From contig NZ_CP073695.1 in the NCBI RefSeq assembly GCF_018228765.1, positions 806,001 to 870,000 of the forward strand: a stretch of DNA of 64,000 bases, given 5' to 3'. The position numbers and the translations under genes are program-made. Shown in pieces: positions 5,247 to 61,503 of the stretch; within the stretch, counting starts at the first letter, position 1, and the number at the start of each line of letters is the position of its first letter. This DNA is from Halorubrum ruber (lineage in GTDB: Archaea; Halobacteriota; Halobacteria; Halobacteriales; Haloferacaceae). The notes under the pieces are model-generated. The model searched no databases. It worked only from the letters and a program-made list of their open reading frames with translations, and was not told the DNA's origin.

Positions 5247-5254
5247 TTTATAAA
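5247..5254 (+). promoter_or_regulatory. TATA-like box upstream of structured element copy A
   Basis: TTTATAAA, itself a perfect palindrome, sits about 19 bases before the conserved GGCGGTGGCGCGTGC start of the element. Boxes at matching places precede copies C and D. The spacing puts a predicted transcription start at or very near the first helix of the element. Confidence 0.5.
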
Positions 5255-5265
5255 TGACTGGACAG

Positions 5266-5535
5266 GGCGGTGGCGCGTGCCTGCGAGTGGCCGCCGAAGG
5301 CGGCCGCGAGGAGCACGCGCGAGGGAGTCAGTCGCCCGAAGCGGAGCGAGGGCGACTGACGAGGCTGGGGAGGTGTGAGGCGCTGTGCGGTTGCGGTGGT
5401 GGGCGGTGCGGGGCGGGACTCAAAGGGGCAGCCGGCGAGGCGGGCGCAGGCGACGTAAGCACTGAAAGGAGCGAGCAACGCGAGCGACTGAAGCGCGCAG
5501 CGAGCGTGCGCCCGCCTCGCCGGCTGGGGCTTTGG
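5266..5535 (+). ncRNA. Multi-copy structured element, copy A (putative structured RNA)
   Basis: Helix one pairs GCGCGTGC (5273-5280) with GCACGCGC (5313-5320) and encloses GGCCGCC/GGCGGCC. Helix two pairs GTCAGTCGCCC (5327-5337) with GGGCGACTGAC (5350-5360). Helix three pairs a perfect 20-base arm, 5429-5448, with 5507-5526. Between helices two and three lie conserved unpaired blocks, GAGGCTGGGGAGG and GGGACTCAAAGGGGCAG. The same plan with different stem sequences recurs in copies B, C and D. No protein family is recognisable in any frame; open frames here are Arg-rich compositional artefacts. I cannot name a known RNA family. A structured mobile or REP-like repeat is the alternative. Confidence 0.55.
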
Positions 5536-5741
5536 CTGTGTCCGCTGCGGCGGCAGCGATTTATAAGCGAGCAGTCGGTGATTTGGCGGTGTCCACCGTT
5601 GATCCATAGTCGACTATTTATAAACGAGCGGCTGGGGATTTGGAGGCGTTCGCCGCCGATCTATTATCGATTATTTATAAGCAAGCGGCTGGGGATTTGG
5701 AGGAATTCTCTGCCGACCCGCCGTATTTATAAAAGACTGCG
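5522..5741 (+). repeat. Tandem 57-base repeat with TTTATAA boxes, array A (four units)
   Basis: Units begin with GGCTGGGG(A/C)TTTGG-like sequence at 5522, 5573, 5630 and 5687. Each contains a small GGCG...CGCC hairpin region and ends with a TTTATAA box (5560, 5617, 5674, 5726). The first unit overlaps the 3' arm of helix three of copy A. The array ends 15 bases before the pitA stop codon. The repeated boxes could be promoters or AT-rich terminators; the sequence alone does not say which. Confidence 0.7.
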
Positions 5742-7544: not shown

Positions 7545-7694
7545 TAGCGGTTTCGAAGTCCCCACCGCTCGGCCGTACGTGAGTATCTTTACCGACGGTG
7601 ATTCCCTGACCGATGAGAACGCCTCCAAAGCCCCAGCCGCTCGGCGATACGTGAGTGACCGCTGATCGATGGCGAACATCCCCAAAGCCCCAGT
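7545..7694 (-). repeat. Tandem repeat downstream of copy B, divergent units
   Basis: On the minus strand the unit starts CTGGGGCTTTGG near 7694, GGCTGGGGCTTTGG near 7638 and GGTGGGGACTTCG near 7565. These correspond to the 57-base units of arrays A and D. Here the TTTATAA box is replaced by CTCACGTAT/CTCACGTAC before CGCCGAGC or CGGCCGAGC. The array lies between copy B and the pitA start codon, so it may overlap the pitA promoter region. Confidence 0.6.
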
Positions 7695-8003
7695 CGCGAG
7701 GCCGCCGTACGCTCGTTGCGCTCCTCGCTCGCGGTGCTCGCTGCGGTGCTTACGTCGTCATCAGAACGCTCCGCGTTCTGATTGGCTCACGAGAGCTCCG
7801 CTCTCGTGAACGCCTACGGCGGCCTCGCGACTGCCCCTTTGAGTCCCACCCCGCACCGCTCCGCACAGCACCTCACGCCTCCCCAGCCTCGTCGGGCGCA
7901 TCCTTCGGGCTCCCTTCGGTCGCCCTCGGCGCGCCCGACTCCCTCGCGCGTGCGCCTCGCGGCCTCCGCTTCGCTCCGGCCGCTCGCGGGCACGCGCCGA
8001 CCG
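7682..8003 (-). ncRNA. Multi-copy structured element, copy B (putative structured RNA, enlarged)
   Basis: Read on the minus strand. Helix one pairs 7990-7997 with 7946-7953 (GCGCGTGC/GCACGCGC), with an inner GCGGCC/GGCCGC. Helix two pairs GTCGGGCGC (7891-7899) with GCGCCCGAC (7931-7939). Helix three pairs a perfect 19-base arm, 7815-7833, with 7691-7709. Two extra perfect 9-base-pair hairpins with three-base loops (7761-7781 and 7788-7808) are inserted inside helix three, which makes this the longest copy. No TTTATAA box precedes it, unlike the other copies, so it may be silent. Confidence 0.5.
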
Positions 8004-8126
8004 CACGTGGCTATCCTGCCGGATGCCGGAGCCATCGAAGCGCCCGAATCCGCCGGCTCGTCGCGGCTCGCGTCCGGGGTCGCCGTGACCGAAACCCTTT
8101 CGACGCGACCCCGAAAAGTCGGGACA

Positions 8127-41335: not shown

Positions 41336-41406
41336 GCACCGGTAGTGTAGTGGTATCACGCAACCTTGCCATGGTTGCAACCCGAGTTCAAATCTCGGCC
41401 GGTGCA
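41336..41406 (+). tRNA. tRNA-Gly (GCC)
   Basis: The acceptor GCACCGG pairs perfectly with CCGGTGC and the discriminator is A at 41406. The anticodon stem CAACC/GGTTG encloses TTGCCAT with anticodon GCC. The T arm is CCGAG-TTCAAAT-CTCGG. The last 14 bases are repeated at 41507-41520. Confidence 0.95.
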
Positions 41407-41520
41407 CTCCTTTCAGTCGTGCCCCGGCCTGACTCCCGCTCGCTGCGTCGCCGGCGCTACGCGCCGGCTGCCAGAGGGACCCTCGGTCCCTCGCTGCTCG
41501 CGGGAGTCTCGGCCGGTGCA
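41407..41520. repeat. Three-way-junction inverted repeat followed by a duplicated tRNA-Gly 3' end
   Basis: GACTCCCGC (41431-41439) pairs with GCGGGAGTC (41500-41508), enclosing two perfect 8-base-pair hairpins: GCCGGCGC-TAC-GCGCCGGC (41450-41468) and GAGGGACC-CTC-GGTCCCTC (41474-41492). The 14 bases TCTCGGCCGGTGCA at the end of the tRNA gene (41393-41406) recur at 41507-41520, right after the structure. This arrangement resembles a short palindromic element inserted at the tRNA end. No integrase gene is present. Confidence 0.65.
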
Positions 41521-41572
41521 TTTCTCGAACGTAGTGAGAGGAATCGCCGAGAGGGATTTGAACGCTATCAGT

Positions 41573-41623
41573 TATTTATAAATCGGCGGCAGGTCGGCGG
41601 AGCACACCTCCAAAGCCCCAGCC
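41573..41623 (-). repeat. Single repeat unit after copy C
   Basis: On the minus strand one unit GGCTGGGGCTTTGGAGG... ending in TTTATAAATAACT follows helix three of copy C, matching a unit of arrays A and D. Only one unit is present here, so unit number varies between copies (four, three, one). Confidence 0.6.
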
Positions 41624-41866
41624 GCGAGGCGGACGCACACTCGCTGCGCTCCGCACTCGGTCGCTACCGCTCCCTCGTTGCGGTGCTTGCGTCGTCTGCG
41701 CCCGCCTCGCGACTGCCCCTTTGAGTCCCGCCCCGCACCGCAACCGCGCCTCACGCCTCCCCAGCCTCGTCGCTGGCGGCCTTCGCTGCGCTCCGGCCGC
41801 CAGCGACTCCCTCGCGCGTGCTCCTCGCGGCCGCCTTCGGCGGCCACTTGGAGGCACGCGCCACCG
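41610..41866 (-). ncRNA. Multi-copy structured element, copy C (putative structured RNA)
   Basis: Read on the minus strand. Helix one pairs 41854-41861 with 41814-41821. Helix two pairs GTCGCTGGCGGCC (41769-41781) with GGCCGCCAGCGAC (41795-41807), 13 base pairs. Helix three pairs 41697-41715 with 41619-41637 over 19 positions. Two of these are G-U pairs on the minus-strand RNA but would be A-C mismatches on the plus strand. That supports minus-strand transcription, the same sense the TTTATAAA box at 41876 implies. Conserved blocks between helices match copies A, B and D. Confidence 0.55.
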
Positions 41867-41875
41867 CCCCGTTCA

Positions 41876-41883
41876 TTTATAAA
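41876..41883 (-). promoter_or_regulatory. TATA-like box upstream of structured element copy C
   Basis: TTTATAAA precedes the conserved CGGTGGCGCGTGC start of copy C by about ten bases when read on the minus strand (TTTATAAATGAACGGGGCGG). The flank TTTATAAATGA is shared with copy A. Confidence 0.5.
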
Positions 41884-61057: not shown

Positions 61058-61247
61058 TTTATAAACGAGCTCACACCGAGATTGCGGTCGACGTATCGGG
61101 AATCGCTGCCGTGGGCTCTCCGAAAACCTCTGCCGCTCTTTTATAAATAGGTGTCAGTAGCTCAGCGTTGAACACCGCCAAATCCCCAGTCGCTGGCTTA
61201 TAAATAGCTGAGAACAGATCGGCGGCGAACACCGCCAAAGCCCCAGC
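61058..61247 (-). repeat. Tandem 57-base repeat, array D (three units)
   Basis: On the minus strand, units starting at 61247 (GGCTGGGGCTTTGG), 61190 (GACTGGGGATTTGG) and 61133 (GGCAGAGGTTTTCGG) follow the element. The first two are 57 bases apart and end in TATTTATAAGCCAGC and TATTTATAAAAGAGC; the third diverges and ends in GTTTATAAATCC. The array lies between copy D and the tfs gene. Confidence 0.65.
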
Positions 61248-61490
61248 CGCGAGGACTCGCGCGGCTTGCTGCGCTCCTCGTCGCTCACTCCGTTCGCTCC
61301 TGCGGTGCTTACTGCGCCGTGCTTCGCCCTCGCGGCTGCCCCTTTGAGTCCCACCCCGCACCCGCACCGCACAGCACCGCACCTCACGCCTCCCCAGCCT
61401 CGTCAGCCGGCCTCCGCTACGCTCCGGCCGGCTGACTCCCTCGCGCGTGCTCCTCGCGGCCAAGGGCCGCTCGCAGGCACGCGCCACCGC
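61235..61490 (-). ncRNA. Multi-copy structured element, copy D (putative structured RNA)
   Basis: Read on the minus strand. Helix one pairs 61477-61484 with 61443-61450 (GCGCGTGC/GCACGCGC) and encloses GCGGCC/GGCCGC with loop AAG. Helix two pairs GTCAGCCGGCC (61402-61412) with GGCCGGCTGAC (61426-61436). Helix three pairs CAGCCGCGAGG arms (61328-61338 with 61244-61254), shorter than in A-C. The conserved unpaired blocks of copies A-C are present, including GAGGCTGGGGAGGCGTGAGG and GGGACTCAAAGGGGCAG. Confidence 0.55.
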
Positions 61491-61496
61491 ATCTCG

Positions 61497-61503
61497 TTTA
61501 TAA
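61497..61503 (-). promoter_or_regulatory. TATA-like box upstream of structured element copy D
   Basis: TTTATAA lies a few bases from the conserved start of copy D, CGGTGGCGCGTGCC, when read on the minus strand (CTTATAAACGAGATGCGGTGG). Spacing to the first helix is similar to copies A and C. Confidence 0.45.

Follow-up and report, generated by a model that had tools for sequence, protein, structure and literature searches.

Dispersed intergenic repeats that carry hairpins and reach high copy numbers are familiar from bacteria, where they are known as REP or REPIN elements. Bacterial conjugative plasmids also carry single-strand elements, termed Frpo or ssi, in their leading regions. Among haloarchaea, short non-coding repeats have been described in Haloquadratum walsbyi under the names PATEs and SMRs (PMC3119063). 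Likewise, the Halorubrum virus HF2 carries class I intergenic repeats of 56-58 bp with an AT-rich promoter box (PMC8707807). The repeat considered here was found in none of the literature searched, which comprised open papers, and the family is apparently undescribed.

One member of this family, which we call copy C, lies in a 64,000-nt stretch of Halorubrum DNA (the window) and occupies positions 41575-41883 of the minus strand, from its 5' box to its 3' box. It was recognized both by blastn searches that recovered a family in its own genome and by a covariance-model match at 41749-41862 on the minus strand (contig positions 847749-847862) scoring 86.3 bits. A tRNA-Gly gene adjoins it on one side and a gene for a pitA-like phosphate transporter on the other. 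The first-pass annotation had drawn attention to two G-U pairs in copy C, but a folded repeat that is found throughout a genus and has a relative on plasmids is of greater interest than these two pairs. We propose that the folded molecule of copy C is a structured non-coding RNA some 250-300 nt long, a reading to which we assign an even chance.

Architecture and distribution of the repeat

All features of copy C are given in the order in which they occur on the minus strand. The 5' boundary is formed by a palindromic box, TTTATAAA, at 41876-41883. Helix 1 (41814-41862) has a conserved GA/GA internal loop and a triloop, and exhibits many double compensatory changes (alignment columns 8-62). It is followed by the unpaired junction GAGGGA (41808-41813), which is invariant in the alignment, and by helix 2 (41769-41807), whose arms at 41769-41781 and 41795-41807 form 13 perfect base pairs in copy C. 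The most conserved stretch is the core, GAGGCTGGGGAGGCGTGAGG, at 41749-41768, which is invariant except for one Y. Beyond the core and a G-rich linker, the 3' domain begins with GGGACTCAAAGGGGCAG (41713-41729) and continues with helix 3 (41611-41723), in which arms at 41611-41640 and 41694-41723 include a conserved GGG/GGG internal loop and flank a variable inner part. The conservation of the internal loops in helices 1 and 3 was judged by inspecting alignments. Finally come GGAGGTGTGCTCCGCCGACC and a second TTTATAAA box at 41575-41582, which had escaped mention in the first-pass annotation.

Additional copies are present in the window. Copy A, together with tandem 57-nt 3' units that have boxes of their own, spans 5247-5740 on the plus strand; the tandem units occupy 5540-5740, and TTTATAA occurs in each. 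A further copy on the minus strand (7683-8010, outer limit approximate) has its core near 7890 and helix-3-type arms at 7683-7712 and 7812-7841. Another, also on the minus strand and equipped with 3' units, has its core near 61401 and extends over 61058-61500, again with an approximate outer limit. Near copy C, the region 41393-41525 repeats the tRNA-Gly gene's 3' end beyond a palindromic insert some 95 nt long. The number of these units, each consisting of a tRNA end and a hairpin, varies among orthologous loci, and they constitute a repeat family separate from that of copy C.

Members of the family are modular. At least one extra 57-nt 3' unit is present in 81 of 130 copies, and such units almost always lie on the 3' side (an upstream unit was seen in 1/130). 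Adjacent units resemble each other more than they resemble units from different arrays. Less frequently (19/180 copies), an extra middle module consisting of CACGGAAGTCGCAG and two hairpins is inserted between the core and the 3' domain. Four G-tracts around helix 3 are kept in 129/141 full copies. Runs of at least three G residues each, at 41713-41748 and 41611-41640 in copy C, might permit a G-quadruplex in the potassium-rich cytoplasm. We suggest that a single strand would fold in the order of helix 1, GAGGGA, helix 2, the GAGGCTGGGGAGGYGTGAGG core, the G-rich linker, helix 3 with its GGG/GGG loop, and the 57-nt units.

With a covariance model built on the 5' domain, at least 150 copies were identified in the 3.02-Mb Halorubrum genome, and all 150 scored candidates passed. 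The sequence GACGAGGCTGGGGAGG, with up to two mismatches, has 223 matches there compared with 10 in a reversed control. The genome holds roughly 150-200 copies, and the repeat is estimated to take up 1-3% of the chromosome. The best-scoring copies in this genome are 79-86% identical to copy C. Elsewhere in the genus, the core motif (at most one mismatch) is present in all 35 of 35 genomes, with 11 to 157 matches each, and is near chance in other genera; similarly, GGGACTCAAAGGGGCAG has 6-185 matches in 19 of 19 genus genomes and 0-2 in others. Nearly all named records among the matches listed belong to Halorubrum, the others being Halobellus captivus and the uncultured archaeon MAG A07HR67. 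High copy number is confined to Halorubrum among the genera searched.

Other genera of the same taxonomic family contain a few weaker relatives (46-57 bits); their stems are quite different, and they keep GAGGGA and GAGGYTGGGGAGG. The 5' domains in another genus form head-to-head pairs that overlap by about 10 nt, with some of the partners being weak. Searches of Rfam 15 at the gathering score returned only tRNAs within the window, and at relaxed thresholds the best family match reached 17.6 bits where 55 were needed. Phage records and IMG/VR yielded 0 matches to the repeat.

The folding strand of copy C

The geometry reported for helix 3 in the first-pass annotation proved to be correct. Counted inward from CAG (41715 downward) and CTG (41619-41621) on the minus strand, the helix runs uninterrupted for 19 positions, 17 of which are Watson-Crick pairs. 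The odd positions are 4 (T41712.G41622) and 15 (G41701.T41633), which become A.C if read on the plus strand. G.T is better tolerated than A.C in RNA and in single-stranded DNA alike. The likelihood that both odd pairs of copy C land on one given strand by chance is p = 0.25, and therefore the strand claim is carried by a test of the family rather than by copy C.

A G-U bias in other copies, which had been named as a check on the original claim, was indeed present in helix 3 at about 2:1. Across 141 copies, 58 G.T pairs were counted versus 26 A.C (p = 6e-4), and the ratio was 52:26 when only unique helix-3 sequences were used. These counts were obtained by walking along the arms with one criterion for G.T and A.C alike. 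The same walk gave 17:13 for helix 2 and 37:30 for outer helix 1, neither of which is significant; the helix-1 counts from this simple walk are perhaps in a shifted register, and alignment-based counts were used alongside. Among aligned pairs that are at least 70% Watson-Crick in 133 copies, G.T exceeded A.C by 175:107 (p = 6e-5 by cells, which are not independent), and a sign test per pair gave 29:20, which is not significant.

Folding energies distinguish the strands as well. The consensus of 48 aligned copies folds at -107 kcal/mol in the sense direction versus -79 kcal/mol in antisense, which is 28 kcal/mol worse, and the antisense consensus fold retains an excess of A.C (52 A.C vs 31 G.U). 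In each of the 133 full copies the sense strand has the better fold, by a mean of 24.6 kcal/mol, a difference to which base composition contributes. Because the family has a G.T bias and folds more poorly in antisense, the minus strand is the folding strand of copy C. The original strand call therefore stands, on better grounds than those first given for it. Comparing G.T with A.C over many copies provides a statistical way to assign a strand; it cannot, alone, separate RNA from single-stranded DNA.

RNA and DNA readings of the folded strand

Changes on both sides of the pair were found at 38 of 64 consensus pairs in 48 copies from many species; helix 1, for example, includes the pair variants CTCC/GGAG, CTGC/GCAG, CGGT/ACCG, CGAT/ATCG, and CCGT/ACGG. 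The family thus displays what is expected of a structured non-coding RNA, namely covariation along with G.U in excess of A.C on one strand, with the caveat that copies may have exchanged sequence. Orthologous copies differ by 63 double changes that keep pairing versus 18 single changes that keep it, and these arrive in blocks. Since double changes outnumber single ones, stepwise compensation is a poor fit, which suggests whole-helix exchange between copies or templated repair. Such exchange makes the covariation weaker as proof of selection on an RNA, and the block-wise double changes count against the RNA reading. Pairing constraint and exchange between copies may together uphold the likeness among copies.

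Whole helix blocks differ together when orthologous copies are compared, which would also suit palindromic repeats of an ordinary double-stranded kind. On this view, recombination or template-switch repair keeps the repeats perfect, they have no single-strand function, and their strand bias stems from G-rich composition. Copies lie between called genes in 133 of 138 cases, occur in excess between convergent genes (p = 7e-6), as tolerated intergenic repeats would, and are fewer between divergent genes (p = 0.02), with gene calls in all these counts made by a home-made composition score. However, the most conserved parts of the element are its unpaired motifs, in other genera as well, and the asymmetry between G.T and A.C is likewise at odds with a purely double-stranded repeat, making this explanation improbable. 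The retention of long unpaired motifs in other genera despite wholly different stems counts in favor of the RNA reading.

The AT-rich box was the second signal that the first-pass annotation had put forward, on the premise that it lies upstream only on the minus strand. This premise does not hold, because TTTATAAA reads identically on both strands and the second copy, at 41575-41582, is upstream on the plus strand. The box occurs 7 times in the window, with 0.00 expected by chance. With up to two mismatches, it is found within 35 nt upstream of GGTGGCGCG in 128/176 copies compared with 4/176 in a control stretch, which indicates that the box is part of the element; it starts mostly at -18 to -15 relative to GGTGGCGCG. 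The 3' end carries TTATAA family-wide (92/140 copies). The fixed place of the AT-rich box in most copies counts in favor of the RNA reading.

As a promoter, the box is unusual. Archaeal TATA boxes are typically centered near -27. This usual spacing would put the start at about +9 to +14, within the 5' outer arm of helix 1 (+4 to +11) or past it, and this arm is conserved although the expected start falls there; the box is several base pairs too near helix 1. The TATA motif of HF2 class I repeats begins at -26 (PMC8707807). Additionally, CGAAA has been proposed as the BRE that immediately precedes the TATA box in haloarchaea (cited in PMC4983044). No conserved BRE was found beside the box when copies were aligned on helix 1 (no position from -22 to -45 exceeding 0.16 bit), and CGAAA is absent from the profile aligned on the box, whose maximum is about 0.5 bit. 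The missing BRE and the position of the expected start count against the RNA reading. With its palindromic sequence and its recurrence at either end and where 57-nt units join, the box is not a clean independent signal of strand.

Agreement of the two signals on a strand had been taken to strengthen the RNA reading. It does not by itself show RNA, since a single DNA strand that folds could equally accommodate G.T wobbles and the loops observed. The loops are mostly triloops, which cap 124 of 149 unique helix-1 sequences and 97 of 121 unique helix-2 sequences. In helix 2, 60% of the sequences have the form C(GNA)G, with GAA (54), GGA (10), GCA (5), and GTA (3). The C(GNA)G loop is very stable in DNA and is favored by DNA. 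Loops of 3 nt outnumber those of 4 nt by 19:1 inside the element, versus 32:43 outside, and the triloops and C(GNA)G loops weigh against RNA.

These observations bring forward the main competitor, which holds that the same strand folds as single-stranded DNA. The repeat would then serve in mobility or replication as a non-autonomous element, its hairpins being recognized on one strand and TTTATAA acting as a boundary or target, and its plasmid form would be served by a neighboring RPA-like protein. TTTATAA at both ends and at unit joints agrees with this proposal, as do the conservation of a helix-1 arm that lies in part ahead of the expected start and the gene of ssDNA-binding type that adjoins the plasmid form. 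Yet no ends are held in common with resident TnpB (21 loci) or Y1 loci, the similarity found there consisting of whole neighboring copies or 3' units. Genomes without Y1_Tnp still hold about 70-105 matches to the core or helix-3 motifs, and the lack of matches among phages and in IMG/VR also speaks against such an element. An association with TnpB was considered and rejected, since a copy found by the model lies no more than 2 kb away from about 5 of 21 loci compared with about 4 expected from density, both figures being estimates.

The history of individual loci provides evidence on movement. The element at the pitA locus is present in six close species, is altered or reduced to the 5' domain in four, and was not seen at the remaining pitA loci read; presence thus varies, and the flanks have diverged too far to reveal a clean empty site. 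The copy A locus in H. distributum carries an internal deletion and offers no empty site. Over the one segment compared, of about 120 kb, full copies are largely common to the genome studied and its sister species H. distributum, which indicates that movement is old or rare and runs counter to a mobile single-stranded DNA. No bias of strand or position was found along the chromosome (74 plus, 76 minus, with spacing close to random). We regard single-stranded DNA as a real but less probable explanation.

A SINE-like retroposon, copied from RNA by a reverse transcriptase, would account for the high copy number, the structured body, and the restriction of 3' units to the 3' side. In contrast, RVT_1 was detected in 0 of 52 genus genomes in a search whose controls matched in 3, and copying of the element includes its upstream box, which would be lost if an RNA from that start were the template. 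This explanation is therefore very improbable. The spread of the family may be ancient and would most likely have occurred by copying at the DNA level. On the whole, the evidence modestly favors RNA over single-stranded DNA, and the RNA reading is plausible rather than established. We infer both the RNA nature of the folded strand and any function it might have. If this reading is right, every Halorubrum genome tested has about ten to two hundred copies of a folded single-strand element.

Plasmid relatives and comparison with known systems

The 3' domain of copy C matches plasmids of Natrinema zhouii (E = 2e-8) and Halobaculum (E = 3e-13), with 55 nt aligned at 87% identity to a plasmid, and by sequence the domain is related to these loci. 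Using the Natrinema copy as the query, matches were obtained in 70 plasmid records, mostly at one place each. The canonical plasmid form, which occurs in several families, adjoins a gene of about 290 codons in 17 of 18 annotated records inspected, a count that leaves out matches in Halobaculum, Halorussus vallis unnamed1, and Haloarcula rara that are of another type or unannotated; Halobacterium noricense is the exception. The locus sits a few hundred base pairs from the start of this gene, in diverging orientation. Annotations of the gene include DNA-binding protein, replication factor A, OB-fold protein, and hypothetical protein. Three of the approximately 290-aa proteins, when scanned, displayed a C-terminal OB fold with weak similarity to Ssb, and the match to replication factor A fell well short of its cut-off.

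The plasmid locus is about 450-550 nt long, highly conserved, foldable, and absent from Rfam. Its consensus fold has -87 versus -83 kcal/mol on the two strands, such that folding does not settle the strand. The chromosomal family could be an amplified, shortened relative of this conserved structured locus beside an RPA-like gene on haloarchaeal plasmids, and descent may have run from the plasmid form to the chromosomal form. More specifically, we suggest tentatively, while leaning somewhat to the other side, that haloarchaeal plasmids carry an unrecognized structured RNA or single-stranded DNA element of about 450-550 nt together with an RPA-like OB-fold protein, and that a shortened derivative gave rise to as many as about 200 strand-oriented chromosomal copies per Halorubrum genome.

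Several described systems resemble the repeat in part. Like PATEs and SMRs, it is short, non-coding, free of transposase, and high in copy number, with palindromes near its ends. It also resembles PATEs in lacking terminal inverted repeats (its ends differ beyond the box) and in being too short, at about 300 nt, for a transposase. However, the ends of PATEs resemble IS200/IS605, whereas those of the Halorubrum repeat are unlike the ends of resident TnpB and Y1 elements, and near-terminal palindromes of the IS605 type were not found in comparison with the 21 TnpB loci and the Y1 loci. The Halorubrum repeat also differs in being mostly folded and strand-polarized. With regard to MITEs, the 14-nt end repeat of copy C is mostly the palindromic box, no family-wide inverted repeat was seen beyond the box, and the transposon ends compared were those of TnpB and Y1 only.

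The 3' units of the Halorubrum repeat, at 57 nt with TTTATAA, recall the HF2 repeats in length and AT-rich box. Kinship was rejected, as these are the sole features in common: the reported HF2 motif, CTTTAAGT, is unlike the consensus of the 57-nt units, and no phage matches were found. The plasmid relatives are similar in description to Frpo/ssi elements or large plasmid RNAs, in that each is a folded stretch of a few hundred nucleotides upstream of an SSB-type gene, although Frpo/ssi elements are bacterial. We know of no chromosomal amplification of Frpo/ssi-type elements or large plasmid RNAs.

REP and REPIN elements are likewise dispersed, hairpin-bearing repeats, a likeness that extends to enrichment between convergent genes. 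The Halorubrum repeat differs from them in being much longer and modular, and its presence does not require a dedicated Y1 (RAYT-like) enzyme. If our reading is right, archaea would have in this family a counterpart of SINE-like or REPIN-like families, one whose connection to a conserved plasmid locus and an RPA-like protein can be tested.
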